64,000 nt of DNA, taken from contig MU004231.1 of assembly GCA_010405405.1 (NCBI GenBank), positions 2,285,249 through 2,349,248 of the forward strand, read 5' to 3'. The stretch is from Microthyrium microscopicum. Taxonomy: Eukaryota; Ascomycota; Dothideomycetes; Microthyriales; Microthyriaceae. Positions 4,109 through 57,681 of this stretch are shown in pieces. Position 1 is the first letter of the stretch. Every line of letters starts with the position of its first letter. A program made the position numbers and the translations under genes. Under the pieces are notes generated by a model, which was not told the origin of the DNA, searched no databases, and worked only from the letters and a program-made list of their open reading frames with translations.

Positions 4109-4157
4109 AGTTTCCACTCCCCCCTTCCAGAGGCCCCCCCTATCTAGAGGCCCCCCT
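4109..4157 (+). repeat. left terminal inverted repeat of the outer transposon
   Basis: It matches the reverse complement of 14369-14417 at 48 of 49 positions. The single difference is a transition. It contains an internal short duplication of the motif AGAGGCCCCCC. Confidence 0.85.
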
Positions 4158-6350: not shown

Positions 6351-6512
6351 TATTATAAGTTAGATAACGAAGAGATAAGTTATATTATAAGCCTGCTAAA
6401 TAGGAAGGTAACTTAGAGAGAAAAAAGAGTTGAGAGACTCTTTAATTAAGGTATTTATATATAATAGGGGTAGCCTAAATAGGTATAGCTTTAGGAGGTT
6501 TAACCCTTAATA
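6351..6512 (-). repeat. LTR (3' LTR in the minus-sense element)
   Basis: A 162-bp direct repeat of 13758-13919. The LTR ends now read TA...TA, as expected for canonical TG...CA ends after C-to-T/G-to-A change. Confidence 0.85.
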
Positions 6513-13757: not shown

Positions 13758-13919
13758 TATTATAGGTTAGATAATAAAGAGATAAGTTATATTATAAGCT
13801 TACTAAATAGGAAGATAACTTAAAGAGAAAGAAGAGTTAAGAGACTCTTTAATTAAGGTATTTATATATAATAGGGGTAGCCTAAATGAGCATAGCTTTA
13901 GGGGGTTTAACCCCTAATA
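13758..13919 (-). repeat. LTR (5' LTR in the minus-sense element)
   Basis: Direct repeat of 6351-6512 with equal length. The ATGAG target duplication follows immediately at 13920-13924. Confidence 0.85.
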
Positions 13920-14368
13920 ATGAGTCTTGTCTTTATTCTTAACTTTAAATTTAACCTTAATCCTTCTTTTCTACTACTAGAAATCCTTAAAATTAAGACT
14001 TAGGGCCTAAAATAGAAGAAGAGAAAGCTTATTAGAGATAAATATACTAACCTAAAGAATATAAACTAAAAGTATAGTTCTTATAGTAAATTAAGATATA
14101 ATTCTTACGTTTATAGGATTTAGTAATTACGCGCAATTTGGTAAGTAAAGTTAGCTATCTTTAATCTTCTTATTTATAAAAATTAATATATTTTAATACT
14201 AAATTTAAGGTCATAATATAATCCTAAAGGATCTATATTCCTTTTAAAGAGGCCCTCTAGATTAGTATCTAATTTGATACTAACTAATAGCGCTATTATT
14301 ATAGCTAGCTTTTGTATAGCGTCTCTATATAAAAGATGGCTATAGTAATAGCGCGTTGGGATCCCTAA

Positions 14369-35833: not shown

Positions 35834-36125
35834 GGTGGGCGACGTTGATGGAGAGTGGTGCGCAAGGTGTCCGACAATAGATAATATAGAGGAATGAAGG
35901 AGAAGCAGACAGTTGGAGGTGGCAGCAGCCTGGAGAGAGATGGGAGGGAATGTTTTGGAGTTGTATGTCTGAGTTGCGCAGCTTGATGACCTCCCGGTTC
36001 CAGGTGAAGACAGCACTGGCAGGAGCCATCCGTGACAAGGCAGGGGTCATACTTGTGGCCGTGCAGATATAAAAGTCCGTGCGTGTAGCGGCCCAAAATC
36101 CACGTGGCTCAAGTACCTTTGAAAC
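35834..36125. other. Vps1 promoter region
   Basis: Short host segment between the Vps1 start and the inverted repeat of the piggyBac island. No gene. Confidence 0.5.
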
Positions 36126-36142
36126 ATCCCTTCGTATCTGAT
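36126..36142 (+). repeat. left terminal inverted repeat of the piggyBac island
   Basis: Perfect reverse complement of 39047-39063, at the boundary where AT content jumps. Confidence 0.8.
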
Positions 36143-39046: not shown

Positions 39047-39063
39047 ATCAGATACGAAGGGAT
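39047..39063 (-). repeat. right terminal inverted repeat of the piggyBac island
   Basis: Partner of 36126-36142; normal-composition DNA continues after it. A nearby direct similarity (GTATTAG...GCGGAA) sits just inside both ends, near 36,159 and 39,000. Confidence 0.8.
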
Positions 39064-39635
39064 TTTCCATCTCATCTCAACTTCATCTCCTCCATCTTTC
39101 TTGTTTGTTGCCATATTACATCGCACCCTTCAAGAGCTGGATCGCTTTGCGATATAAGCATCTCTTTGACGAGTCTCCTGAAATCAAATACTTGCTGCCA
39201 AACTCATCAATGGACAGGATTCATCATCACGAGTTGTGATCACAAGAGACAGTCACTGAGAGCAATCAATGCAGGTTTGCCTGGTTCAAACCTGATCGAT
39301 AACTCAACATGAGCTTCCAGCTAGTCCCTCTGCAATCCACTCCGCTCAAAAGTGATCCTATAACAAGTTGACAAAGCGATTCAATTGCTTTTCAGTAGTC
39401 ACGTTTGGTTGATTTGGACTAAGGTCAGACAAACAGTATCGCCATGATCCAAGCCAAAACTGCTGGTAATTGTGTTTCATTGTCATAGCGTGTTAGCTTG
39501 GAAGTATAATAATCGGCTTCTTCTACTCCGCAGTTGGTTCTGCGGAGGCTTTGAACTTTTACATTTACATACAGCAGCGAAATCGTGAGGTAATACCAAG
39601 CTATAGAGCCCGCAATTCTCAGCAGACAGAGAAAA
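39064..39635. other. intergenic region
   Basis: No gene seen; promoter side of the gene at 39636. Confidence 0.5.
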
Positions 39636-40190
39636 ATGTCGAAAACGACGCTTCCTCCATCAACTGAAGAGCATGTTGAGCCGGAAATCACCACCGCAAT
39701 GCGAGAACATCAAGCTGCCTGGGCCAAATCACAAGGAGATGACCATCTTGCCGTGGCTCTCTACGCCAATGTCATAAGAGAGTACGAAGCCAACGGCAAC
39801 ACTGAAGCCGTCCTCGAAAACTCACATCATCTGTGCCTCCTGCTTGCAAAGCTCAAGAAATGGGAAGATTTGCAACCGCATTTGGAGCGTCTTTCCGAGC
39901 TTCAAGCTGATCGCGCTCGCCCATTTGCAATGGCTGAAGATGAAAGATGGATCCGCCAGGAGATCAAAACGATGGTGGATTTGTTCTTTTGCTACAGGGA
40001 ACTGGGCAGGGTTCTTGAGTCTAATGTTTGGGCATCGAGAGCTGTCAGGCACGCAGATGGATTGCATGATTCGGCTCGGGAACATGTGCGAGATGGTCTA
40101 AAGACTTTCTCGTCTGTGTTTGTCAATCTTATCAAAAGGCACGAAGCCGAACTTGCAAAGGATCAAGATTCGTCGCCAAAGAAAGACTAA
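39636..40190 (+). CDS. predicted alpha-helical (TPR-like) protein, 184 aa
   Basis: Unknown function. The chain is almost entirely predicted helix, with paired amphipathic helices: HQAAWAKSQGDDHLAVALY, then NGNTEAVLENSHHLCLLL, then KKWEDLQPHLERLSEL, then YRELGRVLESNVWASRAV. The small-large-aromatic spacing suggests three to four degenerate TPR units. It has no signal peptide or membrane segment and is a single exon. Confidence 0.6.
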   Translation: MSKTTLPPSTEEHVEPEITTAMREHQAAWAKSQGDDHLAVALYANVIREYEANGNTEAVLENSHHLCLLLAKLKKWEDLQPHLERLSELQADRARPFAMAEDERWIRQEIKTMVDLFFCYRELGRVLESNVWASRAVRHADGLHDSAREHVRDGLKTFSSVFVNLIKRHEAELAKDQDSSPKKD

Positions 40191-40904: not shown

Positions 40905-41327
40905 ATGCTCAGCCCTTTTGCACTCCTGTTAGCTATTATCTCAATAATTAATGTTGCTGCTCTTCCGTCCGAGCATTGTCCACCAGGCATCGAATTAGCA
41001 ACTGTCACTCTTAGCAATCTGACGTACAACTCCGAAGTCAACTACTCTACCCCAGCCCACTTGGCAGTCAAGGATGGAAACATTGTCTTCAACTTGTCAA
41101 ATAATGATGCGAACACCGCTTTTCAGTGCATGGGAACCAGTATGGACTATCCAGTGTTCTTTTCCTCGGATCAGATCTTCAATTGCACTGCTGTCACGCC
41201 AACACAACCTGGCTGGCTGAGTGATTTCGCATCGTTCGCCTTTTCCCTGGCGGACACAGCCATTGCAGTCAACATGACTTGGTGGAAAGACAAACAAGTA
41301 GAGTATGAGTATACATTTCACCTATAG
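40905..41327 (+). CDS. secreted protein, 140 aa, apparently truncated
   Basis: Residues 1-19 (MLSPFALLLAIISIINVAA) are a signal peptide. The mature chain has several N-glycosylation sequons (NLT, NYS, NLS, NCT, NMT) and Cys residues. The frame stops after EYEYTFHL. A different frame then continues to a stop at 41513 with believable secreted-protein content (YGSLTPNSCYKTSFDMED ... WSSTTVKCK). No GT-AG intron that I can place joins them in phase. Either a one-base frame change truncates the gene or an intron model was missed. Unknown family. Confidence 0.6.
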   Translation: MLSPFALLLAIISIINVAALPSEHCPPGIELATVTLSNLTYNSEVNYSTPAHLAVKDGNIVFNLSNNDANTAFQCMGTSMDYPVFFSSDQIFNCTAVTPTQPGWLSDFASFAFSLADTAIAVNMTWWKDKQVEYEYTFHL

Positions 41328-41780: not shown

Positions 41781-42209
41781 CTATATCAAAACCCATTCAT
41801 CCTCGTCCATGTTCTTGACCATGTCTTGTTCGCTATCATCGACGTCCATGTTTGCTTCGTCGGCAGAAACCTCGGTCCAAGAATTGTGCAATTCAATTTC
41901 ATGCACCAAATTTTGCTTCTGGGCTGCACTAGTGGAGCTTTTGCATCCAGCTAGAGGTGAGGCTGTTGGCGTAGGTGCCCATAGCTGAGCTGCCAGTATG
42001 ACTTTTCCTCCGTACAAACGCGCATCGGGACATTGCTTCGCATGTTGCATGCAAGCTTGACCCATCGGCTCGTAGGTTATTTTGGTTCGCCGGGAGGAAC
42101 ATCCGACTGATTGTTTGACGCCCACTGGTCTAACCTCTAGGCAATGTACAGTCGTGACTTCGCTAGTGCAACCGCAAGCCGTTAAGACCCGAATTGTGGT
42201 CAAACACAT
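41781..42209 (-). CDS. M-C-x9-C-x-C family protein, member A, 142 aa
   Basis: Starts MCLTTIRVLTACGCTS, with cysteines at positions 2, 12 and 14 like its relatives at 43298, 44251, 55237 and 57681. Further cysteines (VHCLE, VGCSS, QACMQ, KQCPD) follow within the first ~75 residues, then a Thr/Ser-rich spacer and a strongly acidic tail (MDVDDSEQDMVKNMDEDEW). I chose the inner ATG at 42209 because it places the conserved MC at the N-terminus; the frame itself opens further upstream at 42386. Function unknown; the cysteine layout suggests metal binding. Confidence 0.6.
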   Translation of the reverse strand: MCLTTIRVLTACGCTSEVTTVHCLEVRPVGVKQSVGCSSRRTKITYEPMGQACMQHAKQCPDARLYGGKVILAAQLWAPTPTASPLAGCKSSTSAAQKQNLVHEIELHNSWTEVSADEANMDVDDSEQDMVKNMDEDEWVLI

Positions 42210-43297
42210 AGTGGGCTTTCGTGTGTGGAGTTTAGAGCAGCAGTTGAGCTCAGATGTTTTGGAGGTCTGGAAGATGAGGGTTTGGGCGTTTGGAAAAAGG
42301 TTGACTGAACGAGCTGGGAGTGCCAAAGACATAGAAGCTTGAGAGATCCATATCGCGCCTAAGTGACTGTAGCAGAGTGAAAGCATAAGTATTGAAGCAG
42401 AAAAGGTCGACCTCCGCTTTTCAGGTGAAGTTTGAGCATTTGAGGTGAGCAGATGTTACTTGTTAGATGGACGCCTTACTATTCAATTTTTTGAACAGAC
42501 CGAATGATATGTGGAATTCATGACTGGCCATTTTATCCAGAACTGATATTGCGCTGCATAGTTCATATCGAGGAAAAATATATACTTCATTCCCAAAGCG
42601 TCAGGTCAGATAGGAATCTTGTGATGATAAGCACTCCCAAAGAAGGTTATTCGAATGTTATATATGTGAGCCTCTTATCGATGCGAAATGTCTAAGGATA
42701 CCTACGTGAAAAATGTGCAATCTAGATGTTCCTGAATCTTGTGGAGCCAGGACGTCTGGATCTGACCAGTTCACTTCAAGCATGTTTTATATTGAGACCT
42801 TAGCTGCATCATTGTCTTCGTAGATGTACCATATGCTTCTCATGACATCGGCAATTATCGCTTGATTGTTGCTAAGGTCTACTCTTGAAAGACATCGCGG
42901 CAAAGGGACGAGGAAATAACAATCATCGAGCAAAACCAATACGAGTGTTTCCGCTTTGTCTCTTTGTTCGTCACTTCGGAGCAAACTGATATGGCTGCAA
43001 TCTGCCTCATGGCTGGATACTCGACTAGGATTGAAATATGTTCGCCCAAGCCGATGACAGGACGTCTGATGAGCAATTAAATACAGATTATGAAAAAAGG
43101 TTGGGGTTTGAAATGTAATATTCAAACCAAGAAGGTGATTGAACATCTCCCTAAGTGCTGGTGCTAAGTGGATTCACTTTTAACAACAAGATATTCAAAT
43201 GAAGAGTGTGAAAAATTGATTGGAACTCTCGGGCAAGTCAGGAAGTTTGTATACGTCTACGTGTAATGAAGGCTCGAAAGACTTATTTCTTTGGGTG
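42210..43297. other. intergenic region between family members A and B
   Basis: No supported gene. A 119-codon minus frame (42787-43146) lacks the family start and other cues. Confidence 0.4.
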
Positions 43298-43714
43298 CTA
43301 AAGCTCCAGCTGTTGGATCTGATCGACCAGGTCTACTTCTTGGATGATTCCTTCGATACTGAAATGTTTTTCAGGTACATAATTCTCATAGAATTCATCG
43401 ACTTCCTTGTCTGTCAGACCTTGAATCCCTAAAGCACGCACCTGGTCAGCAAGTTCGGATCTGGGATCTTTTGCGAGGCCTGGATCTACCTTATCATTGA
43501 GACCAAGTCCAGACATCTGGTCGGCTAACTTGGAGCCAGACTCATGTTTCCAACAAATTGTACCATCTGGCTGCACTTGAGCATCAAATGCCTCATCAGG
43601 GCACTCTTCGCCCAATTCCAGTAGCATGGCTTTGCGGATATCGCTGCACCAAGTTATGTCTTGGAGAGTATAGCAGCCGCAAGTGTCGTTGTATGTGAAC
43701 CACTTGAGACACAT
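43298..43714 (-). CDS. M-C-x9-C-x-C family protein, member B, 138 aa
   Basis: Starts MCLKWFTYNDTCGCYT with Cys 2, 12 and 14. Further cysteines are in ITWCSD and EECPDE, and the CP dipeptide recurs in other members. The rest is acidic with repeated short segments (KLADQMSGLGLNDK, ELADQVRALGIQG), a small internal duplication. Single exon, ATG 43714, same strand and similar size as members A and C. Function unknown. Confidence 0.65.
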   Translation of the reverse strand: MCLKWFTYNDTCGCYTLQDITWCSDIRKAMLLELGEECPDEAFDAQVQPDGTICWKHESGSKLADQMSGLGLNDKVDPGLAKDPRSELADQVRALGIQGLTDKEVDEFYENYVPEKHFSIEGIIQEVDLVDQIQQLEL

Positions 43715-44250
43715 GGTTGATTTGGTGCGGTGTTGAGACTGTCGAAGCTACTGTAATATTCGAATGGAGATAGAGCCGGATCGTGCAGTAGCGAAGGGCC
43801 AGGAAAGGTAAAAAGAAAGATTTGAGTCTAATTTGCTTCTTAGCAGATGGGAAAACACCGTATAAATGATAGCCTGTTTTCGATGTAAGTTCTTGCTGTT
43901 GAAGCAACAATGAGATTGTAGATTAGAATTCTTTGTGCATGGCTGATCTTGTTCCATTATCAATAAAATCTTAGATTCGCATTGTATTTCTTTCAATAGG
44001 ACTGTGTCTAATATCAAGAACGCAGGAAACAACAACATAGACCATTAATGTTACAAGGAAAAAACAAGAAACGGGTATCAATTGTCAAAAAAGGTTTACT
44101 GGGAACGATTTTCATTCACGCATAGAATTAAATACGTCGATCCCCTATGGGGATTTTGATTATCCTCGCTTCCTCCTCACCGCAAGCTCAGGTTCACCCG
44201 AAATCCTATCTGGTTCCGGCTATTCGCTATGAGTGCTGGCTGGCAGCTTT
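43715..44250. other. intergenic region between family members B and C
   Basis: No supported gene. Minus-strand frames here are low-complexity and overlap the flank of member B. Confidence 0.45.
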
Positions 44251-44565
44251 TTAGATCGCATTGATATCGTCCTTTGGCATAGGGACAAGCTTGTCTTGAT
44301 CAACACCATCCAACCAACCCCAGACTCGAGCATTTCGATCATTCTTGGCCTCAGCTACCCGCAGTGTCTCCACGCGCTCTGCCTCCTTGAGGCACCCATC
44401 GCACAATTCGTCTGGGTCATCAGAGTAGTTGATCGGGACGTAGCGAAAGTGAGGACACTTGTTCGTCTGCTTGCGTTTGACGAATATGTCTGCGTAGCAA
44501 GGTGTCTTGCTTCGGCTGACCTCACATTCACATCCACCATACTGATAAATGTAGATGATGCACAT
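44251..44565 (-). CDS. M-C-x9-C-x-C family protein, member C, 104 aa
   Basis: Starts MCIIYIYQYGGCECEV with Cys 2, 12 and 14. Then come KTPCYAD, NKCPHFRY and a clear CDGC pair (C-x-x-C), the same order as in member D. The second half is a charged helix (LKEAERVETLRVAEAKN). With seven or more cysteines in about 60 residues it is likely a compact zinc-binding or disulphide domain. There is no signal peptide, so a cytosolic metal site is more likely. Single exon. Confidence 0.7.
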   Translation of the reverse strand: MCIIYIYQYGGCECEVSRSKTPCYADIFVKRKQTNKCPHFRYVPINYSDDPDELCDGCLKEAERVETLRVAEAKNDRNARVWGWLDGVDQDKLVPMPKDDINAI

Positions 44566-45130
44566 GATGGAGGTGCTTTTTGTGCGCGGTTGTTTTTGTT
44601 GACGTGTGGGGCTTTTTGTTTGCTTTTCGAGAGTGTGCCTCTGGTTTGGAAATTGAATGTACTGGGAACTGGGAGCTTATGTATAGTCGCTTCGGGTGGT
44701 GACATCGTTCGAAGACTTTGAGTTCGTAGTGAATAAAAACATTGTACAAGTATATCGCCGTTGATAATTGAACGTGTAGACCGGTCCCTACGCTGAGCAC
44801 TTTGATGGCTTTGGAATTGGTGACATAGAAGGGAAACAAATGCTTTGTCCTGTATTTCTGGTGGAAGTCGACAAAGGCATTTTGTTGAGACCGCGCAACT
44901 TGATTGAGACCACGAAACTTCATGTAACATGACAAGTGAATGGGCAATTAAATGTATTAGAATGGACTAAAAGGAGAAGCACTAGCCAAAGAGACAAAGA
45001 GAACGAATGAACGAGAATTAAATTGATTATGTGTATAATGTCATTCGACATCTTCCAACAGAATATGATGTCTTTGTGGTTGGAATGGGACTTTGAATCA
45101 GATCCCAGATCAAGTGCTTGCGAGTCGGGC
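44566..45130. other. intergenic region between family members C and D
   Basis: No supported gene; overlapping minus frames are shadows. Confidence 0.45.
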
Positions 45131-45673
45131 TCAAGCATCCCAAAACCCTTCATCTGAGTAAGGTTCGGCTGGATTTTCTTCGTCAGGACGCTCTCTCTGC
45201 CATGAGTATTCGCGACGTTCCAAGTCTCTTGTCGACGTGTCGATGTTTCTCCAGAAGTTTGGAAGCAGGGGTTCTGGATACGGAATACCTCCTGTGTCTT
45301 CGAAACTATATGACCTCCACTCCCATGGCACGTATCCCGGGATGGTGAAATTCAACGGCGTGTAAATAACAAGTCCGTCCTCCTCTGTTTCGAGACTTTC
45401 GGGAACGGGAGGTAGAGATAGAATCGCCACTAGGGCGCTCCAAGTGTGCTGCGCGACGGAAGCAGCTCTTGAGGTCAATCGTGGGTAGTGGCGGATGAAC
45501 TTTTTGCAGTCGTAGCACAGCTTGCTTTTGGGAAGTCTGACTCGTGAAGTGATTTCATTTGGACACTATTCCATGAAACCTCTCCTAATCAGAAGCATGA
45601 GAGGGCAGGACTGCGTCCCACGACTCTCTTCCTCTCCGCAGCCTCGGCAAAAATATACAACAGTATAGCACAT
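45131..45673 (-). pseudogene. M-C-x9-C family, member D, with an in-frame TAG
   Basis: From ATG 45673 the frame reads MCYTVVYFCRGCGEEES ... QSCPLMLLIRRGFME, then a TAG at about codon 36, then continues in the same frame as CPNEITSRVRLPKSK and LCYDCKKF to the stop at 45131 (180 codons plus stop). Cys positions 2 and 12, the downstream CP and the C-x-x-C match member C. Codon 14 encodes Glu instead of Cys. TGG to TAG is a plausible single transition. Alternatives are a missed intron or a real short protein with a separate downstream gene. Confidence 0.6.
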
Positions 45674-47104
45674 CTTGGCTGTTAATCCGAGAATGATTTG
45701 AAGCCTGGAGGGTTCTGAGATATGGTAGTTGTTGAAGTTGATTTGACTGGCTTGTGATTGCTAGTGAATTTTCGACTGGTTTGAAGCCTGGAGGCTGAAA
45801 GGCTGAAAGGCTGGAGGCTGAAAGGCTTGAAGTTTGAATGTTTGAAAGTTTGAAAAGTTGAAAGTTTGAAAAGTTGATGGGATGATAGTATTCGACGGGT
45901 ACTGGCTCACCTAAACCAGATCCCGTTGCTTTAGTATAAGACAGTTGGTCAAGCCGCCAACTGAATCTTGAGGTATTAAATCGGGGGTGAAGTAATACCT
46001 GTTGTCATCATACTGTGCCTTCCGGCTGGGAAGAAGAAGAAAGAGAAAGAGAAAAGTTGGGGGGAGGATTTGAACTTATACCCCAACGCCGATGTGCATC
46101 GTGAACCATGGTTGAGTCTCCCATTGTGAACCATGGTTGAGTCTGCCATTGTGAACCATGGTTGAGAACTTGAGTCTGTGCATGGATCGTGAACTACGGT
46201 TGAGTCTTCTGCAGAATTGGCGTCCAAAGCTTCATCTTCCAAACATGAGATTGGACGAATCTATAGACTATTAGCTTGCTCTCGCCCGCCGTCTAGTTCA
46301 CAGGCATCATCGTGATTTGATACTATATTTTAGAAAGTTTGGCGACCATGGTGCTCTTCTATAAAAATTGGCGCTTTATGGTGTCCAACATTCAATTTCA
46401 AAAACAACCATTTAAAACAAAGAACAAAGAAAACCATTTGATCCACTTATCCAAAACGAAATAAATGGTTAATCGGTCCATGATTTAGTGAGGCCAAATG
46501 ACAAAGAACTGTAGATGACTAGGCGATCAGCAGTTTTTCTGCTAGAGTAGCTTACCTGATCGACCACGAACTTGTAATTGCCGATGACTGACTTCAAAGA
46601 TACCTTCGGCAGCGGTCCTGCCTCTAAGATCGTCGTCATGCCTGTTTTAGGCTCAAATCGTGAGTACCGTGGTTGTCTTACAATTACCCAATTCATTATC
46701 CAACATCCAGCACTTCCTAGACCAAAGGAAGGTCTACGAAGAAAAAAAGCTCAGAAATCATCGTGTCAAAATTTGAAATGCCCAAAGACTTCCTGCTTCA
46801 ACGCTCTTATCACATTTCGAAATGGACCTTACCGAGGTGTCGTTGTATACAAACAATGCCCCTAGCCCCCTTTCAGAACACGAGGCACTAGACTCCAAAA
46901 CCAGTAGATTCGCTAATCATTGTGTATGCCATCGAGCGGGTAACTACTGTTTTAATACCAATCAACTAATGACTCACCGAAAGATTCACCCTTGTTAGAT
47001 CAACATATCAATCAAAGTGGAACACTTAGTCTCCTATAAAATAGAGGTTTCTTGGTTTCAAGGGACAGTTTTCAACTTACTACAGCTCGTTCGCCTCTCC
47101 TACC
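45674..47104. other. intergenic region with minisatellites
   Basis: No confident gene. A plus frame from ATG 46584 to 46865 (MTDFKDTFGSGPASK ...) contains a GTGAGT and could be a two-exon fragment, but I cannot complete it. Short GCTGAAAGG/GTTTGAAA repeats lie at about 45,785-45,875 and 25-bp repeats at 46,101. Confidence 0.4.
46101..46205 (+). repeat. 25-bp tandem repeat, three near-perfect copies plus a diverged fourth
   Basis: GTGAACCATGGTTGAGTC recurs at 46101, 46126 and 46151 with 25-base spacing. A changed copy (GTGAACTACGGTTGAGTC) is at 46188. The core contains the palindrome AACCATGGTT. Confidence 0.8.
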
Positions 47105-47875
47105 ATGCCATCTAACACTGTGTATGTTATCACTGGCGCCAACCGTGGTATTGGCCAAGGTTTGGTGGAAACCTATCTCAGGCGGCATGCTAGCACAGTC
47201 GTCGCTGTAGTTCGCAGTGATTCAGCATCAACCTCCCTGTGGGCCGCGGCAGAAAATTTCACTAGAGGTACGGACAGCATACTGCACATCATTGTCGCCA
47301 ATTTCTCTCAGCCATTATCGCCCCAGGCTGGGATTGATACCTTTAAAGCAGCCACCGCTGGGCTGGATCACATCGATATCCTGATCTGCTCTGCCGGCCA
47401 CAACCCGCGAATGTGTCCTACCATTGAAGTCACAGCCGAGGAATTACGCGAATCCTTCGAGATTAATACCATTCTGCCTCTCACCACTTTTCAAGCTCTA
47501 TGGCCTTTGATGAAGGGGAGTACTGCCACTGCTGGCCCCAAATTCATCGTGTTGTCCTCATCGATGGGGTCGATTGGAGAGATGGAGCAGTTCCCAGCAG
47601 GCGCATACGGCCCAAGTAAAACCGCCATCAACTACATCATCAAGTCCCTACATATGCAAATGGCTCAGAATGGTCTGATTGCGGTTGCCCTTCATCCCGG
47701 ATGGGTTCAAACAGATATGGGGCACTTCGCGGCACAAGAATGGGGACACGAGGCTGGTCCGCCTCTTACACCGAAGGAAAGTGTTGCCGGAATACTGCGG
47801 ATCATAGACGATGCAACTCGAGAAACATGTTCTGGCAAGTTCATCGGCCATAATGGCGAAGAGATTGGGTGGTGA
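47105..47875 (+). CDS. short-chain dehydrogenase/reductase, 256 aa (norsolorinic-acid-reductase-like subgroup)
   Basis: A classical Rossmann-fold NAD(P)H oxidoreductase. The cofactor motif TGANRGIG is at residues 10-17, and LICSAGHNP stands for the NNAG strand. The catalytic Ser lies in LSSSMGS, and Tyr/Lys are in AYGPSKTAIN (Y-x3-K). HPGWVQTDMG is typical of the subgroup that includes aflatoxin ketoreductase-like and C-factor-like enzymes. Single exon, no targeting signal. No other secondary-metabolism genes are nearby, so the substrate is unknown. Confidence 0.85.
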   Translation: MPSNTVYVITGANRGIGQGLVETYLRRHASTVVAVVRSDSASTSLWAAAENFTRGTDSILHIIVANFSQPLSPQAGIDTFKAATAGLDHIDILICSAGHNPRMCPTIEVTAEELRESFEINTILPLTTFQALWPLMKGSTATAGPKFIVLSSSMGSIGEMEQFPAGAYGPSKTAINYIIKSLHMQMAQNGLIAVALHPGWVQTDMGHFAAQEWGHEAGPPLTPKESVAGILRIIDDATRETCSGKFIGHNGEEIGW

Positions 47876-48480
47876 GAATATTTTCCGAACAGTCGATTCT
47901 CTAAGCGCGGTGCCACTGTCTTTCACAATTGATTTCATTTTTACTTTGTCAGACAACCTAGCCTGTATTGATTGCCGAATACCTCTCATTAGACACTGGA
48001 CTCGGAGTACAGCCCTCAGTATTTTGCTGTCCAATGTATTTATCAAATTTATATATCTTTCAAGTTCGATGGACATTCAGCAGAGGCAGTCGCGGCACAC
48101 AAGAGTGACAAGCTACCTTAGGGAAATGATACCTTCACTGTTCTCCAGGACCCAAGTGGATACTGTGTTAGTGACTGGAATATGAGGCGATATATTGGAA
48201 GGTAAACAGATTGCAGGTCGCTCCTCGATGCAAAGTGAAAGATCAGACAGTACCTTTGGCCGATTACAGTAGTGACGCGCACAAAACATCACCACCTAAA
48301 TTTCCCCACTTGCAGCATCGAATTAGTTTATTTCCTTGCCCAACTCTAACCCCAAAGTTTGTCTTCCCCCCATCCACCATCTTCCTCCACCTTCTACTCG
48401 AGACTTCATATTCTCCGCGCTTTGCACAACCTTTTGAACCGAGATCCCGAACAACTGAGAACATCTTGAACATCTCGACC
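47876..48480. other. intergenic region and Rio1 leader
   Basis: No gene seen. The frame open from 48211 into Rio1 is best read as 5' untranslated sequence. Confidence 0.5.
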
Positions 48481-48569
48481 TCGACCCTCGACCCTCGACC
48501 CTCGACCCTCGACCCTCGACCCTCGACCCTCGACCCTCGACCCTCGACCCTCGACCCTCGACCCTCGAC
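48481..48569 (+). repeat. 7-bp minisatellite, about 12.7 copies, in the Rio1 leader
   Basis: The unit TCGACCC is repeated without variation until the final TCGACA, ending about 20 bp before the Rio1 ATG at 48589. Such perfect short tandem DNA should be length-polymorphic. Confidence 0.9.
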
Positions 48570-48588
48570 ACAGCCCACAACCACAGCC

Positions 48589-50241
48589 ATGCCTACGGCC
48601 ATTGAGCCCAACGATAGCGCTCTGCTCCAAGCAGAAGAAGACTACAATTCTGACGACTACTATTCCGAATCAGAAGTTTCCGATCATATCCTTCACGAAG
48701 ACATCTCCTCATCAAATCCTGCCGACTACACGAAATCCTACAATCGCGCTCGAAAGCTGAACGATCCTTCCATACCCGCCCAATACAAGCCAAAAAAAAA
48801 TCTTGCGCATGGCGACCCCACCGCTCCCCAAAAATCTAGATTGAACACACAACTTCGCGTCGATGATCAGCTAGCGAGTTTGAGCAAGCATGCTGCCAAA
48901 TTACGGGTTGATGACCTAGAGATGCCTGACGCGCCTCATAGAAAAGGTCGTGATCGCGCGGAACGTGCGACTGTGGAGCAAGCACTTGACCCCAAGACTC
49001 GCATGCTCCTGCTCCAGATGATCAACCGCAACATTGTTTCTGAGATCAACGGATGTATAAGTACTGGGAAAGAGGCAAATGTCTACCACGCTGTCACCAT
49101 CTCGGACGACGAAGAACAGGCTACACTCCACCGAGCCATCAAAGTATACAAGACGGCCATTTTGGTTTTCAAGGATCGTAACAAGTATATTTCCGGCGAG
49201 CATCGTTTCCGGTCCGGATATCAGCGCGGCTCCAACCGAGCCATGGTGAAGTTATGGGCAGAAAAGGAAATGCGCAACCTCAATCGTCTCTATGCTGCTG
49301 GAATTCCTTGTCCTGAACCCATTTACCTGCGTCAACACGTCCTACTGATGCAATTTCTTGGTGACAAGAAAGGATACCCAGCTCCACGATTGAAGGACTT
49401 TGAATTTGAGGGCGACGAATCCGAGCAGCATGCTCAATGGCACGACTGCTATTTCACATGCCTCGGTCATATGCGGGCCATGTATCAAACATGCAAACTT
49501 GTCCACGGCGATTTGTCGGAGTACAACATGCTGTTCTACAAAGGCAAACTTTACATAATCGACGTAAGTCAAAGTGTAGAGCACGACCATCCTCGCTCTC
49601 TAGAGTTTCTTCGCATGGATATCAAGAACGTGCGGGACTTCTTCGCGAGAAAGGGTGTCAATGTACTGTCTGAACGCGAAGCCTTCGAGTTCATCACCAA
49701 TCACAAAGGCGCCGTTGAGACGGATGCGATGAAAAATCGTCTAGAAGAAATTGAAAAAGGGCGCGACGCGCGGAGTGACGAGGAGCGTGATCGTCTGGAG
49801 CTTGAAGACCAAGTGTTCCGCGAGCAATATATCCCGCAGACGCTTGATCAAGTCTATGATGTCGAGCGGGATACAGAACAGATACAGCGTGGTGAAGGCG
49901 ATTCGCTCATCTACCGCGAGCTTCTTGGTAACATGGGAGTCGCCACAGGCGCAGAGGTACCAGAAGATGAGGACCACGACGACTCTGAAGATGATGAAAA
50001 CGAAAGTGCGTCCAACGGCGACCATGAAGATTGGGACGACAAACAACCGCGTGGCCATCGTTTCGAAGACAAGGACGAGAAGAAGGTACGTGAGCCCAGA
50101 ACCTCACATTACAACGCTAACATTTAGTAGGCTCGTAAAGAGCAGGCCAAGGCCGAGAAACGAGAGGCGCGAAAAAAGAAGATGCCGAAGCATCTCAAGA
50201 AATCCATCGTTACTAAGACTGCTAAGCCAAAGCGTCATTAG
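48589..50241 (+). CDS. RIO1: Rio1 atypical protein kinase (40S ribosome maturation)
   Basis: Rio1 is an atypical kinase/ATPase that releases late 40S assembly factors. Two exons, 48589-50085 and 50131-50241, give 535 aa. The acidic N-terminus (NSDDYYSESEVSDH) precedes the RIO domain. The P-loop is STGKEANVYHA, the catalytic loop is HGDLSEYNMLFY, and the metal-binding Asp is in IIDVSQSVEHDHP; the flexible-loop segment FRSGYQRGSNRAMVKLWAEKE is also present. The C-terminus is acidic and then Lys-rich (RKKKMPKHLKK), typical of the family. I prefer ATG 48589 because it starts the conserved acidic region; an upstream ATG at 48211 would translate the 7-bp repeat. Confidence 0.92.
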
Positions 50242-50532
50242 ATAAATGTTGTAATGTGTAATTGCTTATGATGCTACCCGAACCCCCTATTTATGAACCT
50301 TCAAAACTGCTGCTGCTTGAATGATGAAGCTTTTAGGTCGAGCTGGCCGGGATGCCTTCTGGAACCCGCTAGTATCAGACAACCGATTCAATCAATGATG
50401 ATCAAAGAGAGCACTGACAAGCGACGATAGACTCATGTATTGCCCTTGCTTGTTTGTGAACCTTTCCAATAATATTTCCTACTATTTCACGTACACTTGT
50501 CTCACAGGTTTGCCTCAGACTGTGCCAGAGGT
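50242..50532. other. short convergent intergenic spacer
   Basis: Joint 3' flank of Rio1 and the AIF-like gene; nothing else seen. Confidence 0.5.
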
Positions 50533-52288
50533 TCAAACTTCGGAGCCGGCGGCGAAAGAGGCTGGATACCCAGTTTCGAGAGTGTCCCTAACCATTTTAT
50601 CAGTATTGCTAACGCAAAGAATGTAGCAACTTTCGATCTTACCGTCTAGACCCAAAGCCCTCCCAAAAGCGCCCTGCTTTACTCCTGGTCCCCATCGCAG
50701 AGACTCTCCTCCATTCGACATGGCCTGATTGCCTACTGCCAGAGACATAGACGCTCTTGTAACTGGCTGCAACTTTTCAAACTCTATCTCAGACGCAGCT
50801 CGGCCATCTTCAGCAGCAAGCATCTGCGCGAATATATTTTTGGCTGCGATCTTCCCCATATTCCCTGCCGGCCCGGAACGTTTAATACCTGACCAAGACA
50901 CTACATCACCAGCAGCGTAGATCACATCGGAATTCTCTAAATCTTCTGGAAATTGCAATCTAGCACTTATTAGTCGAGTTTGTGACGGCTGGCGGAGTTC
51001 TTACGTGTCGCGCGTTTTATAACAGTCATCCTTCATCCAATGCTGGCTCGGCAGAAATTTTGTGTTTGCGCCCTGTTGGACGGCCGTAAAAATTGCTTTA
51101 TTAGCGAACATCGTCTCGCCATTTGACAGAGTAAGTTCCACGCCGCCGTCCACGTTTTTGTTGCCAGTTACTCGCTGGCCTAAAATGACATTCACGCCGG
51201 ATTCGCGTACGAGATCTGCTGCTTTCGCTTTGAAATCATCGGGTAGGTCTTCAGCGCTCAGCAGCTGGGATCTCGAATGGATTAGAGACACGTCAGCATT
51301 AGGGAAATGGACCTTGGTTTCCGCGGCCATTTCGATTCCGACAGCACCTAGATCTGTGTCAGCCAAAATCCATTGCATAGATTGCGTGTATCGTACCTCC
51401 GCCAACTAGCACGATCTTTTGATGCTGACCCAGCTCGTTTTCTAGTTTCTTGACATCTTTCAGGTATTGATCACGAAACATCGCAGTAGGAACTACTGGC
51501 GCTGTTCGCGCCATGCCAGTCGCCACAATTAGGTAGTCGTAAGGTATCGATTTGAGTTCGCCAGCGGGGGTTTTGTAATCCATTTTCTTAGCCGCTTCGT
51601 TAAGCGAGGTGGCCTTTCCGTGTACGAATGAGACATCTGTATAGCCCTCTTTCGTCTTTATGATATGTTGGAACGGGACCCAGAACTCCCAGGCAATATT
51701 GCTGGAAATCATGCTTAGTGGTGCGCCAACCAAGTGGTAGAAACCGTCTCGCTCGTCTAGGATGGTGTAACGAGGCTTAACATTTAGAGGTCGAATGTGC
51801 TTCAGTGGTCCTGATGTTGGAGCTGGTGCTGGCTCAGCTGTTGCTCCATTCGTTGCTCCATTCGTTGCTCCATTCGTTGCTCCATTCGTTGCTCCATTCG
51901 TTGCTCCATTCGTTGCTCCATTCGTTGCTCCATTCGTTGCTCCATTCGGTCGGCCATTTGGTCGTCCTGGGCCACCATTTGGTGTAGCACCAACTTCGCG
52001 AAGAGGAGCATAGCCTCCACCACCTCTCCCGGGACCTCCACGTTTACCTCCCCTGCCACCCTCTTGTGGTGCTTTTCCTTGGCTCAGACTTATGAGCTGG
52101 TTTAGAGCATTCAGACCCGCATAGGAACCGCCTACAATGAGAACATGAGGCTGAGGAGACATGTTGCAAGTGGGAATACTAGACGAGAATTGACGAGCGA
52201 AGAACGAAGGAGTCCAATTATTGGTCACGAAGGAAGAGAAAAGAGTAGTGTTTCCTAGACGGCTAAGAGCGGTGCCGACTGAATTCAT
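50533..52288 (-). CDS. AIF/AMID-like FAD-dependent oxidoreductase, 553 aa
   Basis: Three exons keep frame: 51397-52288, 51005-51347 and 50533-50959. The first ~40 residues (Arg/Ser/Phe-rich, ARQFSSSIP) could target mitochondria; an inner Met (MSPQPH) would remove them. FAD-binding GGSYAGLNAL follows. A Gly-rich and then Asn-Gly-Ala-Thr repeat is inserted at about residues 80-145, where AIF relatives have only a short loop. The second Rossmann motif (IVLVGGGAVGIEMA) spans an intron, and the late FAD motif is YAAGDVVSW. The fold fits AIFM2/AMID-type NAD(P)H-quinone reductases linked to apoptosis or stress. Confidence 0.85.
51840..51947 (-). repeat. 12-bp coding minisatellite, nine perfect copies
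   Basis: GTTGCTCCATTC (plus sense) is repeated nine times without change inside the AIF-like gene. In the coding sense it adds Asn-Gly-Ala-Thr per unit, so changes in copy number keep the frame. Confidence 0.9.
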
Positions 52289-52622
52289 ATGGGGAAGATC
52301 TAGAGCTAAATGGTAGGGAGGGCTTATCAGATCTTTATATACTTTATCAATCTATACAGGGGTTTGCAGGCAAAGTAGCCGATAGAATTCTATTTAGATG
52401 CCGTTGCCCCATTTTTAATTGCTCAGAGACGGGAGGCGGCGTAAGGCAACTGTCGCCATTCGCTGTCCGAATTGGCCGAGTCCGAGACCGGCTGTATCTT
52501 CAATTTTTTGGAATATCCTTGGAGTCTGGACGCGTCAATTCAATGCTTTCCTCTTGTTGATTCTCGGTCTTGTAACTCTTGCTAGTCGGACACGGAACGT
52601 ATTCCTTGCTCTATCACGGCTA
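52289..52622. other. intergenic region
   Basis: Between the start of the AIF-like gene and the end of the cyclase gene; nothing else seen. Confidence 0.5.
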
Positions 52623-53765
52623 TCACGGCTCCTTTCCGAGTACCTGCTTCGCTATCCATTTTGCCGTCTGCGTGTGTAAACTCCCTTCAATCTGCTTCCC
52701 AGCCTCGTCGCGTCCAACATCGATTTCGCAAGGTCCATCAGCCAACGCTTCAAACACCACAAGTTGATCGCGCATATACTCATCCACACACCCACCATGT
52801 CCAATCTCCATCTCCAACTCCTCCGTAACCCGATCCACCAGTTTCCTTGGTATCGCGTCCAGATTCTTCAAGTTATTCTTCTGATCGTATAGCCAATCCC
52901 TCCCCAGCCGATGCCCATTCTCCGTCACAGCCACAAGCAGCAGATAAAACCTCTTCTCGTGCCCACTATCCTCCACTGTAACCTCTGTCTCCTCCGCGCC
53001 CAGTCTTGTCTTGAAATACCCCTTCTGTTGTGCAAGCTCATGCTCCATCTGCCGTCTACATTGCCTGGGCACCAGCGCGTATGCTTCTACCCGTTGCACG
53101 TCTCCGCGCTCAACCAGCGACCATGGTGACAACGGCTCGCCGAACGGCAGTGGTGTCACTTTAAATTCGACGGATCCCATCTGCGGTCTTCCGGTGCTCC
53201 AGCCGCGCTTCTGCAGGGTCGCGGTTATCGTCGGGAGGCCTATTTTGGCCAGCGTTGGTAGTAGGACGTGCTGGATATATTCAAATGATGGGCTCTTGGA
53301 GACGTTGGTGCCGCCAGATATCGTCACTTTGATTGCTGCCCGATTTGGCTGTTGCAGTGCGTGCAGGGCGCCGCCGAACAGGAGATATGGAAGGATTGCC
53401 TGAAATACCAGGGCGACGCTGCCGGGACTGCCAATGTCAATTTCGCTGCGTAGTTTGGTCCGATCAGCTGCGGCCTGAGTTGGAGGGATGGGTTGGGGAG
53501 TAAAGGTGAGTGTTTTGCTGCTGCGGCTCGCGCCTTCCAGGTCGGCGGAACAGGCTTCGGCGAGCCATTCGACGGCTCGGAGATGCTGGAGTTTCAGACC
53601 ACCGCCGCCGCCGCGATTACCTCTGATGGAGGTTATATGGAGTGGTGTATGGGTGAGAGCCCCAAGTCCCATGGCGAGGCGTAGAAGTTGCCCGCCACCT
53701 TCGAGGTGCGTTCCTGGGATATGGAGTGGCTTTATGCGCGGCATCATGATGTGATAGCGCTTCAA
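52623..53765 (-). CDS. RNA 3'-terminal phosphate cyclase (RtcA/Rcl1 superfamily), 380 aa
   Basis: Members convert RNA 3'-phosphate to 2',3'-cyclic phosphate with ATP, or (Rcl1) process pre-rRNA. The N-terminus has EGGGQLLRLAMGLGAL and the Gly-rich RGNRGGGGGLKLQH that matches the cyclase-class RPGLKPQH region. GSPGSVALVFQAILPYLLF and SGGTNVSKSPSFEYIQHVLLP are characteristic of RtcA-type cyclases, which suggests an enzyme and not Rcl1. A likely nucleophilic His position could not be fixed by eye. Single exon; several Mets near the start (MKRYHIMMPRI). Confidence 0.82.
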   Translation of the reverse strand: MKRYHIMMPRIKPLHIPGTHLEGGGQLLRLAMGLGALTHTPLHITSIRGNRGGGGGLKLQHLRAVEWLAEACSADLEGASRSSKTLTFTPQPIPPTQAAADRTKLRSEIDIGSPGSVALVFQAILPYLLFGGALHALQQPNRAAIKVTISGGTNVSKSPSFEYIQHVLLPTLAKIGLPTITATLQKRGWSTGRPQMGSVEFKVTPLPFGEPLSPWSLVERGDVQRVEAYALVPRQCRRQMEHELAQQKGYFKTRLGAEETEVTVEDSGHEKRFYLLLVAVTENGHRLGRDWLYDQKNNLKNLDAIPRKLVDRVTEELEMEIGHGGCVDEYMRDQLVVFEALADGPCEIDVGRDEAGKQIEGSLHTQTAKWIAKQVLGKEP

Positions 53766-54640
53766 AGGTTTGTTTGGTTTGTTTGGCTGATAAAGTAGAG
53801 TAGGTTGTGGTGCTAGTGGTTGGTGGTCTTTGTTTGATGCTCAACCAACTTTAGAGTTGATGTGACTGCTCGTTTTATTCTTCAAATCCAACACAATCTT
53901 GAAAGATGAACGCTTACTTATATTTGTTTTAGAGGTCAAAGTCAAGTGTTGACGCATCGCTTTTCGTACGAAATATCCATTGGTAAATCCTACAGTCTAC
54001 AGGTTGCGAGGCTATGCAGTCGGCGGTGACCCAAATTAGACTGCAGAGTCATCACTCAAATACTCTGCCACTATCAAAACCGAAAATAGTGAATCAAGAA
54101 GGGGCTTTCTGGAATCCAAACTTCATGACAATGCATTACGCCAGATTATATTCTGTCAAGTTGATATTGGGATGTAAGCCATTCTACTACATCTCCTACT
54201 ACACAAAACTCCCCCATGTCATGTATTCACGGCACCCATTGGACTACAGAAAGACAAAACTTTGCCTAAAACTATCACCGCTGTTTGCCGACCTACTCAG
54301 AGTGCTCTGAGATTGGCAATACCGTTGGAGTGTCTGGTACCAATGATGCGGCTGCCACTGGAACCAAAACATAACACGGACCGTAAGGCCCAAGCCGAAT
54401 GGAAACATTCATATCCTTCTCCTTTACAAAACAGGCCAGCCTGGTATTATTTGGGAGTAACTGCATTCCCGTTAGTCAAATTTCATTTAAGACATTTCAG
54501 CATCAATCATGACATTGTCCGACTCTGGCACAGAAGAAATAGGTAGGTACTTACTGGTAGCATGCCACGGATATCTGTAGTTTCCCTATCTCTTGGCCAT
54601 ATGATCAAAGATTGTGATTCATGATCTCGGTGGCCTGAAA
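53766..54640. other. intergenic region
   Basis: No supported gene. The 3' part may contain further decayed sequence of the family copy at 54641, whose third exon I could not find. Confidence 0.4.
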
Positions 54641-55237
54641 TTATTCGGTGGCCTGAGCGTATTGGTTTGTAACGACATATTTTGTTCGGTACTCTAATGG
54701 CGATACAGGGCGTGAATGGCCCGCGAGCCCGCTTTGTGAAAGAACTTGGAGTACTGTCCCAGATACGCAAACCATCCCATGCCGTTTGAGCTGGGCCATA
54801 GACGAGGAATTCTGAGCAAATTTCTGGTGTAGCAAAGAGGGTTGGTGGAACTGGTTCGAATCTATGCTCGTAATTGATAGGTATTGGAGGGTCTGGTAGT
54901 TCTTCAGCAGGGCCGGGTTAACAACTACTGCTATCTTCAGATTCTCTATGAACATACCAGAGTTTTCTACGGCTTCATAGAACTCTTGAAACACGTCTGG
55001 GCGCAGTTGCATAACTCCACCGGAAATCTGGTTCAGTTCAGTCTTGCACTGCGGCATATTACGATTGCGTGCGGTAGGTCTGGTGATCCTGTTCTCATGC
55101 AACTCAAGTACTAAGTAATACGTCGGATTGGCAGGGCAGTGTATTTCATCCGCAATGTTTTCTTGACATCAGGTCAGCCTGTACAAATACGTTGGGCAGG
55201 AGCATAAAGCGAGTATGTATACGGCTGTGATACACAT
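54641..55237 (-). pseudogene. M-C-x9-C-x-C family, member E, decayed
   Basis: From ATG 55237 the frame reads MCITAVYILALCSCPTY, then a TGA at codon 23, then CQENIADEIHCPANP and further to NQISGGVMQLRPDVFQ. This is clearly related to the NQIHGRLAMLRPDIIQ stretch of member F. A GTATGT donor at 54957 and a CAG acceptor at 54824 mirror intron 1 of member F and lead to an exon reading ICSEFLVYGPAQ ... TPSSFTKRARGPF. No third exon is evident. One internal stop plus the missing 3' exon indicate a pseudogene, or a TGA inside an unrecognised intron. Confidence 0.6.
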
Positions 55238-55721
55238 TTTGACACGAGATGCGCTGATTCGATACTTGAGATCTTGTGGAAAGATCAGAAACTGCAATAA
55301 TGATATGATATAACTATAAATACCCGTATTTCAAGGCCTGAGATCGGATGCTCAGTTGAAAGAGTTGTGGTCATAGTGTTGAGGTGCTCTGATCATTGTG
55401 TTCTGGTGTTCAAATCATAGGTTGTAGAGTTCTGGCCACGATACTCCAGCCATGGTGTTCATGCTAGCTTGTTCTTTGTGGAGAGGCAGGCTCTGCCCGT
55501 GTCACGGTACATTTCTTGGGGGCTTTCAGTGATATCAAACTCATCGTAGCTTCCATTGCCTTGAGTGGCTACCTATCTTACGAAGTATTTATGGTCCAGT
55601 GCTATGGCTCCCATCACATTTGATCGGAGAATCGTACACAGGTAGTAATAGAGTTCAGTGAGCTAGAGGATCAAATCCGCATATCTCTAACCAGATTTTG
55701 ATGTATATCAAATAGCTGGTT
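55238..55721. other. intergenic region
   Basis: AT-leaning host DNA between member E and the satellite; no gene seen. Confidence 0.45.
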
Positions 55722-56405
55722 TTGCCATAGTAATCGATAGGCACTATCGCACTTCATGAGAGAATTGTGCTAATAGCAATGACCAAGCCAGACGATCCAA
55801 ATTGCATCTTTCTGACCAAAATTTGTAGCACACTACTTATTCGCTTTTCCCATCGTATGCGGTGAGCGCCAGCGCACTCAATGGGTTGAATTGTAGTATC
55901 AGCAATGAGCAGGCCAGATAATCCATATTACATATTTCTGACTAGAATTCAAGGATAATAAATGTTCGTTTCTCCCATCTTATGCGGTGGGCCCATTGAA
56001 GTCGATGGGAGCATTGCATTGACTCCAGTGAGTAACCGGATGAATCCAAAAGTGCACATTTCCGACTAGAAAATAAAGCATAATTAAAGTTAGTTCTTCC
56101 CATCGTATACGGTGGGCGCCATCGCACTCGATGGGAACATCGTACTAATAACAGCGACTTCAGTGAGTAACCGGATGCATCCAAAATTGCACATTTTCGA
56201 CTAGAATTTAAAGCATAATAAAAGTTAGTTCTTCTCATCGTATGCGGTGGGCACCATCGCACTCGATGGGAGCATTCTACTAATAGCAGTGAGTAAGCCG
56301 GATGCATCCAGAATTGGATATTTCGAACTAGAATTCAAAGCGTGGTAAATATCCGTTTCTCCCATCGTACTCGATGGGCGCCATCACACTCGATGGCTCC
56401 CATGG
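55722..56405 (+). repeat. about 125-bp satellite, 5.5 diverged units
   Basis: Units start near 55722, 55848, 55972, 56094, 56229 and (partial) 56356, with periods of 122-135 bp. Each has a head TCCCATCGTATGCGGTGGGC, a CCATCGCACTCGATGG palindrome, GTGAGTAA(C/G)CCGGATGCATCC and GACTAGAATTCAAAGC. Units differ by point changes and small indels, so the array is not recent. Confidence 0.85.
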
Positions 56406-56627
56406 TAAAACCGGTTTGGAATCTTATACTAACAAATTGGAAAGAGGCTGATCAGGCTGTTCTGTCATCATAACTTATCTGAAATGCAAGAGCCATCATG
56501 AACCAATTCTATCTCATATAACTACAGAAAATTTACATATTGAGACAGGAAGTTGCTACTATAAAAGCGACTTTATGATCCATCCTACCACTCATGTCAA
56601 CTCTAGCTAATGACTTCTATCCCGCCG

Positions 56628-57681
56628 TTATATATTATTTTCAATCTCGTGGATTGCCACAAGTACATAATCGGCACCAGCAAGCCGTATAACTTCTTGT
56701 ACCCCGAAAGGAAGCACATTGAACAATACATGGTTTCTCGGAATGCATTCTTGTCCTGGCGGAAGCGATAGTTGTCGAGTCCAAACCGTACTGTAGTGTT
56801 CTACAGCTCCCGATTCGTGATGTCGCACAACCTGTGCTGGAATACTGATATAAACAGCCCTGACCGTTGGAAGGGCATGATCAACGTGGTGAAAAGGTGC
56901 ATGACCTAGTATCTGTTAGTACAAATGTACGAAAGAGTGTTGTTTCTCAAAGCTGACACGTGCTGAAAGTCTCGTTTGGACTTCTCAGGACGAGTCATCA
57001 AGGTCTATGGAGGAAGAAATCAAGGCTTTCGGAATTTCTCTCGACATTCGATCACATCGTTTGAAGGCCATCGCATTCGATGGGAGACATCGAATGCGAT
57101 GGGCGCCAGGACGTGTTTAGCTGCATTTGGGGCTATCAAGAAATGTGGGCTGGCATGTGGATTTCTTACCATTGCGCACTGGTATAATCTGCGGTATCGT
57201 CGCGTATTGGATGGTTGTTGCTTGTAGGCGATTCAGTACAGGCCAAGTCGCCATGATAATGGGCCGGGCAGAGTCGAATGTAAACGCATCCGGGGAAAAA
57301 CTGGTATAGACACCGACGGTATTGAGCTGCGGTAGTCCTCGCTCTATGGAAAGTTAGATCGCTGAAAGGGGCCTTTCTTGTTCAGGACGTACCATGCCCA
57401 TCCACGACCGTATGGTAAGACTGGATGATATCAGGGCGCAGCATAGCAAGTCTGCCGTGTATTTGGTTTCTCTCCATTTCACAAGGTGGCCTATACATGG
57501 GATCTGTCTGGCTTCTATCCCCATGCATTTCCCATATCAGTCGGTAGGTTTGTCTTGTTGGACAGCGAGTGGATGGATAATTCTGTGTGGCATCTCCACA
57601 AGTGTTGTGAAGTGTCTCTTGAAAGGCGATTCGGGTCTCGCAGCCGCAAAAGGGAAACATGTATACCTTTATGACGCACAT
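56628..57681 (-). CDS. M-C-x9-C-x-C family protein, member F, 246 aa, three exons
   Basis: Exons 57393-57681, 57170-57343 and 56628-56905 keep frame, with GTACGT/TAG and GTAAGA/CTAG splice sites and CTAAC branch points. The start is MCVIKVYMFPFCGCET with Cys 2, 12 and 14, followed by HNTCGD, TRCPTR and PPCEME. The middle exon reads GVYTSFSPDAFTFDSARP. The last exon (HAPFHHVDHALPTVRAVYIS ... PPGQECIPRNHVLF) is non-cysteine and beta-like, so this member is longer than A-C and may show the full ancestral protein. Intron 2 (264 nt) contains the perfect hairpin at 57068-57102. Function unknown. Confidence 0.65.
57068..57102. repeat. perfect 15-bp inverted repeat with 5-nt loop
   Basis: CCATCGCATTCGATG, loop GGAGA, then CATCGAATGCGATGG, inside intron 2 of member F. 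The arm matches the CCATCGCACTCGATGG palindrome of the nearby satellite, so it is probably a satellite-derived or related unit. Confidence 0.8.

Follow-up and report, generated by a model that had tools for sequence, protein, structure and literature searches.

The window, the whole 64 kb stretch of Microthyrium microscopicum DNA analysed here (the species is a leaf-litter fungus), carries six genes, all on the minus strand, for small proteins that open with Met-Cys. Five of them, starting at 42209, 43714, 44565, 55237 and 57681, share the signature M-C-x9-C-x-C, and the sixth, starting at 45673, has Cys at positions 2 and 12 without Cys14. Starts and residues of all six genes are exactly as written in the initial annotation, verifying that Cys occupies positions 2, 12 and 14 in five minus-strand genes, and that a sixth keeps C2 and C12 only. 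Copy 1 (41781..42209, 142 aa) has C2, C12, C14, C23, C37 and C53-x2-H56 followed by a long tail; copy 2 (43298..43714, 138 aa) has C2, C12, C14, C23, C38 and C54-x2-H57; copy 3 (44251..44565, 104 aa) has C2, C12, C14, C23, C37 and C55-x2-C58; and copy 6 (57382..57681, 99 aa) has C2, C12, C14, C28, C40 and C67. Copy 4 (45566..45673) extends for 35 codons, with C2, C12 and C23, to an in-frame TAG, and the open minus-strand frame beyond this stop (45131..45565, 144 aa) adds C37 and C53-x2-C56. Copy 5 (55169..55237) extends for 22 codons, with C2, C12 and C14, to an in-frame TGA, beyond which the frame is again open (54641..55168, minus strand, 175 aa). Four copies lie within 3.9 kb and the starts of the other two are 2.4 kb apart, with ~9 kb of other genes between the groups, including (47099..53840) a short-chain dehydrogenase, a RIO1 kinase, a pyridine nucleotide-disulphide oxidoreductase and an RNA 3'-terminal phosphate cyclase (Pfam PF00106, PF01163, PF07992 and PF01137). 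The copies had been described as dispersed rather than in strict tandem; the ~9 kb of unrelated genes does split them, but they form two groups and are more tandem than was claimed.

Two of the six copies (45673 and 55237) look broken by their in-frame stops, and inspection by eye found no GT-AG intron in either that would excise the stop while leaving the frame intact. The sole deposited gene model found, that of copy 1 (BT63DRAFT_410335, 209 aa), does not start at MC; it has an added upstream part, which makes the MC start internal, at residue 68. An A at -3 of the ATG is present in 6/6 window copies and in 18 of 20 other genes, relative to a background of 954/3,172.

A looser scan of the whole 64 kb (x8-10, C-x-[C/H]) returned the same five genes only, as did an x7-11 scan of 264 kb around the array (a region that includes 70 bases of N). 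The chance expectation was estimated from the 3,172 Met-opened frames of at least 22 aa in the 264 kb, with Cys at position 2 in 75, at position 12 in 103 and at position 14 in 110; Cys at all three positions is expected in 0.084 frames and was found in five, all of them the reported genes. As a control, the C-x-C was slid to every other start from 3 to 19, which gave one match in total (at 3), indicating that the excess of frames is confined to the 12/14 spacing. A longer skeleton, the expression for which was drawn from the very copies that match it, was present in four of 2,025 frames, namely 42209, 43714, 44565 and 45673, the last without C14 and only with the frame read past its TAG. With shuffled tails, a mean of 0.0025 of the six genes matched this skeleton (maximum of 1; 2,000 rounds). 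The order C...CP...C-x-x-C, which the initial annotation considered shared, stood in part: a Pro follows the fifth Cys in five of the six copies, but C-x-x-C is restricted to 44565 and 45673, the final pair being C-x-x-H in 42209 and 43714, with neither form in 55237 and 57681.

Metallothioneins have a very high Cys content and repeated C-x-C. The window copies are likewise small, Cys-rich and in tandem, as metallothionein-like metal buffers could be, but this hallmark was not found in them: no more than 6-7 Cys fall within their first 75 residues, C-x-C occurs at most once, and the cysteines keep a fixed order. Taken with the strand-helix fold predicted for the conserved form described below, this makes a metal-buffering family extremely unlikely.

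Kinship among the copies was scored as pairwise z relative to shuffles in which M1, C2, C12 and C14 were held fixed, giving 8.0 for 55237/57681, 4.7 for 44565/45673, 4.1 for 45673/55237 and 3.9 for 42209/43714; of the other five, copy 2 is the closest to copy 1. Residues 1-97 of copy 6 align with copy 5 at 38% identity (E 4.3e-10), across the copy 5 stop, and, judged by sequence, copy 5 is a paralogue of copy 6. Genes from outside the window rival the neighbours, with z of up to 4.3 (45673 with a gene on contig C3) and 3.8 (43714 with a gene on contig C9), so that 55237/57681 is the one pair for which stepwise local duplication is clear.

Elsewhere in the genome, contig C9 carries same-strand arrays of nine genes in ~5.4 kb and six genes in 2.7 kb, a tally of C9-type genes from searches with single proteins and not a genome total. 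Most of these genes have C-x-H in place of C-x-C. The MC-x9-C-x-H genes of C9 (L029, L033, L034, L038) resemble the window copies in their start, in the same or similar spacing, in ligand order and in their same-strand arrays, and one (L038:1501) has C-x-C as the window copies do; unlike the window copies, nearly all have His at position 14, the proteins are shorter, and the final C-x2-C is nearer. The Met-Cys, Cys12 and [Cys/His]14 of this C9/C3/C1 family are present in full in five of the six window copies (45673 is without position 14). An order of later Cys and a final C-x2-[CH] can be traced in four of the six, but a profile of the tail alone (below) does not set the window genes apart. 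One C9 frame (L033:149) stops early, and two weaker C9 matches (C9:304677 and C9:651951) were reported with an internal stop, no clear copy start being seen in either. These stops, with those in two of the six window copies, would suit chance matches or decaying relics without present function; however, the intact copies keep both the fixed Cys skeleton and a good start context, and we regard such an origin as very unlikely.

A profile was built from 17 of the outside genes on C1, C3 and C9, excluding L033:149, which stops early, and L026 and L027, which are of the VERYSVCRC type described below. With one stop read through, the window genes rank 1-6 of 51 Met-anchored matches to this profile (3,403 frames), a ranking that is partly built in because the profile genes were chosen by the MC...C-x-[CH] expression; copy 3 (44565) is its top match in the 264 kb. 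Window genes hold ranks 1-4 and 7 of 49 without read-through, 45673 not being anchored, and the six are found at ranks 1, 2, 17, 24, 29 and 43 without the Met anchor. A profile restricted to the sequence after residue 14 did not pick them out (they fell between ranks 86 and 980 of 1,998), and profile-profile comparison of the window, C9 and conserved sets gave probabilities of ~1%, with P of 0.02 to 0.04 per single comparison.

The same start is found in conserved fungal hypothetical proteins of the type 'MCYQVVERYSVCRC...' (e.g. Penicillium alfredii NUU61_005685 and Aspergillus pseudoustus BJY01DRAFT_240125), for which no Pfam domain is listed. Among the 120 matches listed of 159, M-C-x9-C-x-C is kept in 119; with the relative that has no M-C (P0088) excluded, 92 of these 119 listed proteins begin directly with M-C, and eight Cys/His positions are invariant in 119/119. 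Eight is the number for two zinc sites. The conserved form opens with M-C-x9-C-x-C and goes on to Cys24, His32 and a closing C-x2-H, an order of ligands that copies 1-3 share; it differs from the window copies in its strong conservation, in an extra invariant His19 and in a DSGYxS-like tail (94/120 among the matches listed). The M-C-x9-C-x-C start of this family is present in five of the six window copies. Its invariant H19, C24, H32 and C45-x2-H48 were not found in them; the window copies have either C23, C37 or C38 with a C-x2-[CH] that is spaced differently, or C24/C28 and no final pair. Alignment of the window and conserved profiles with hhalign gave a probability of 0.7%, and a profile of the conserved relatives ranked 55237 first or second and the other five window genes 23 to 452. 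The window genes and the conserved fungal protein may share common descent; we record their likeness as one of layout only.

Searches found no family over cut-off in Pfam for five of the six copies, in NCBIfam for four copies, or for ten outside genes. Protein-database searches with window alignments returned the window's own copy 1 only, or nothing, and searching the PDB by sequence gave one match each for copy 3 (E 0.92) and the conserved family (E 1.3). In a Pfam search of 76 conserved relatives, Cys_rich_VLP matched 40/76 (best E 0.015, under cut-off in the table shown) and seven other families matched one relative each (best ZF-HD_dimer, 0.0034), all of which were rejected as weak. No description of the family was recognised in the portions of the literature retrieved, and the string VERYSVCRC has no occurrence in the literature searched. 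The lack of any over-cut-off family in these searches, the further copies in the genome and the recurrence of the spacing in a conserved fungal protein all support the proposal that the genes form an undescribed family whose Cys skeleton is under selection.

Structure prediction gave the conserved form as strand-strand-helix-strand-helix, with C45-x2-H48 opening the last helix (pLDDT 76.5). A poor model of the window protein (pLDDT 58) has the same order of elements, an agreement that is not independent because its alignment contained conserved relatives. Fold comparison gave no credible match among the families listed there. As in treble-clef and other small zinc fingers, a C-x-C in the predicted conserved form makes the turn from one strand to the next, and a C-x2-H pair opens its last helix. 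The UBR-box is the subject of a published paper (PMC4506424).

We consider it reasonably probable that the six genes are local duplicates belonging to a wider family of fungal proteins that are small, zinc-held and probably intracellular, and whose genes undergo tandem birth and death. Metal binding is a good inference from sequence, drawn from the eight Cys/His invariant in 119/119 relatives listed and from the Cys/His swaps at the same places, and the proteins, as judged by eye, would be intracellular. Each would open with a domain of ~55-60 residues held by zinc, with ligands in the order Cys2, Cys12-x-[Cys/His]14, Cys at ~23, Cys/His at ~30-38 and a final Cys-x2-[Cys/His]; the sequence between ligands would be nearly free, the tails would vary, and genes would be gained and lost by tandem duplication. 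Secreted, disulphide-held cysteine-rich proteins (effector- or defensin-like) would also be small, in tandem and fast-changing, and copy 5 has a hydrophobic start. However, the conserved Cys 2, 12 and 14 fall where a signal peptide would be removed, Cys numbers vary, and Cys/His exchange suits a metal and not disulphides, leaving this alternative with a very low probability.

In the favoured zinc-held domain, Cys2 would most probably be one of the zinc ligands, which would account for the fixed nine-residue step to Cys12. In another, unlikely version, Met would be removed and the free N-terminal Cys2 would bind metal through both thiol and amine, in a large undescribed family whose arrays form a rapidly diversifying intracellular recognition set; the amine would then supply the eighth ligand for the fuller window and C9 forms, which have seven Cys/His, taking the part of His19 in the conserved form. 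On this version the Cys would have to be the second residue of the gene product, and the metal site would include the N-terminus itself. Quite unlikely, in our view, are Cys-type N-degron reporters, in which Met is cleaved, Cys2 is oxidised and arginylated, and lifetime is set by oxygen or nitric oxide. Consistent with these are the Cys at residue 2 itself, the M-C in 119/120 conserved relatives among the matches listed, and, in the genome, a partial match to the arginyltransferase domain ATE_N that scores 31.9 bits against a cut-off of 27 (profile positions 36-64, one TAA inside), but such reporters require a free N-terminus and leave the x9 spacing and the later cysteines unexplained. The search for a PCO/ADO-type thiol dioxygenase gave no match, but says little as it was also silent in every control genome.

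For the zinc-held proteins that we favour, a guess at the cellular role is that of a binding adaptor exposed to diversifying pressure, as might arise in recognition or conflict. Such small genes may be missed or mis-started by gene finders, as the deposited start of copy 1 illustrates. If zinc binding is true, the array would represent a new small zinc domain multiplying in tandem in a fungus, and the conserved look-alike, present in many species (120 of 159 matches listed), would be the first object of study.

All six minus-strand gene starts put forward in the initial annotation (42209, 43714, 44565, 45673, 55237 and 57681; copies 1 to 6) matched on re-reading of the sequence; the genes share the signature M-C-x9-C-x-C, 45673 without the Cys at position 14. 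The genome of this Dothideomycete comprises 36.9 Mb in 20 contigs, the window being positions 2285249-2349248 of contig C2 (4,495,203 bases), and part of the deposited M. microscopicum protein BT63DRAFT_410335 is identical to copy 1. Four copies lie within 3.9 kb, and two, with starts 2.4 kb apart, lie ~9 kb beyond, separated from the first group by genes for a short-chain dehydrogenase, RIO1 kinase, pyridine nucleotide-disulphide oxidoreductase and RNA 3'-phosphate cyclase. A 7-base repeat (13.9 copies, 48474-48569) precedes the RIO1 domain within the open frame, and the oxidoreductase frame contains a perfect 12-base repeat (9.1 copies, 51840-51948), read as NGAT repeats. A 135-base tandem repeat (3.6 copies, 55930-56396) lies between 55237 and 57681. 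Adjoining the array on the other strand, 40905-41327 encodes a small protein that matches AltA1 weakly (PF16541, E 3.8e-6; 28.1 bits, cut-off 27.5). AT-rich blocks (4001-14000 and 36001-40000; 20-34% GC) stand next to stretches of 40-52% GC, an arrangement typical of repeat-rich, point-mutated DNA in fungi.

Among 3,172 Met codons opening frames of at least 22 residues in the window and 200 kb of flank, Cys at 2, 12 and 14 was seen five times against 0.084 expected, each time in a reported gene; sliding the C-x-C to other starts, from 3 to 19, gave one occurrence in total. C-x9-C-x-C at any place occurred 20 times in window and flank, five of them directly behind Met. Chance is ruled out as the source of the signature. 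The later skeleton (C at 22-24, C 11-15 residues on, C-x2-[CH]) was found in 4 of 2,025 frames, copies 1-4, copy 4 not fitting unless its stop was read as X. This count gauges specificity rather than discovery, the expression having been derived from these copies. All six ATGs have A at -3 (background 30%).

Two copies look like recently broken genes: 45673 has a TAG after 35 codons and 55237 a TGA after 22, each frame staying open far past the stop with further family cysteines. Copy 5 (55237) is clearly a paralogue of copy 6 (57681), with 38% identity over 97 residues (E 4.3e-10). With signature residues held constant in shuffles, 44565/45673 (z 4.7), 45673/55237 (z 4.1) and 42209/43714 (z 3.9) were also elevated; the remaining window pairs were lower, several near zero. 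Since the nearest kin among the six are neighbours, local duplication fits, and is secure for the 55237/57681 pair only. In the tail of copy 2 (43298-43714) an internal repeat, KLADQMSGLGL / ELADQVRALGI, was found by eye.

Four window proteins searched against the whole genome gave self matches only, except that 57681 also matched 55237. Two further queries, representing a conserved fungal protein and a looser C-G-H form, each matched two places, and neighbourhood reading with follow-up yielded 20 distinct M-C-x7-12-C-x-[CH] frames outside the window. Two, on C7 and C10, are of conserved type; of the others, C3 carries two, C1 one and C9 15. Those on C9 form two single-strand arrays, of nine frames over ~5.4 kb (271.0-276.5 kb; one stops early) and six over 2.7 kb (305.1-307.7 kb). 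In the 18 frames not of conserved type, the pair's second place is Cys in a single C9 frame (L038:1501), which as a genome query found no additional place, and His in the other 17. A profile of 17 of these 18, scanned over 3,403 frames with one stop read through, placed the six window genes at ranks 1-6 of 51 Met-anchored matches, a ranking not independent of the signature by which the outside genes were chosen. Without read-through they ranked 1-4 and 7 of 49, 45673 not being anchored, and unanchored at 1, 2, 17, 24, 29 and 43; a profile of the part behind residue 14 did not single them out. The N-terminal signature and the order of later ligands thus suggest family membership.

A protein search with an artificial joined sequence passed 159 proteins, of which 120 were listed, all hypothetical, uncharacterized, unnamed or nameless and without a Pfam domain (Penicillium, Aspergillus, Talaromyces, Coccidioides, Alternaria, Bipolaris, Parastagonospora, Dothistroma, Stipitochalara and others). 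M-C-x9-C-x-C is present in 119 of the 120, beginning at residue 1 in 92, and C2, C12, C14, H19, C24, H32, C45 and H48 are kept in all 119, a count omitting P0088, the match without M-C. The tails of 94 of the 120, beyond the part used as query, carry D-S-G-[hydrophobic]-x-S, a motif with the form of the beta-TrCP phosphodegron. AlphaFold2 predicts strands 2-9, 15-21 and 34-41 and helices 23-26 and 46-53 for this conserved form (pLDDT 76.5), with no good match among known folds; the model of 44565 has the same element order (pLDDT 58, relatives included in the alignment). Profile comparison of window and conserved forms did not demonstrate common descent, and the conserved-form profile over the region placed 55237 at rank 1 or 2, the remaining window copies ranking from 23 to 452; the common layout suggests that the two may be related.

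The six genes are fairly likely to be local duplicates within a larger fungal family of small, probably intracellular, putative zinc-domain proteins, a confidence lowered slightly because some outside genes score with window copies as high as neighbours do (single genes from C3 and C9, z up to 4.3 and 4.0). Zinc binding, the place in the cell and the role of the family are what we infer. Cys and His exchange at position 14, the middle ligand and the last ligand; this, together with fixed ligands in free sequence and the eight ligands that never vary among the conserved relatives, suggests that the Cys/His ligands would bind one or two zinc ions. Cys2 may itself be a ligand, which would explain the x9 step to Cys12.
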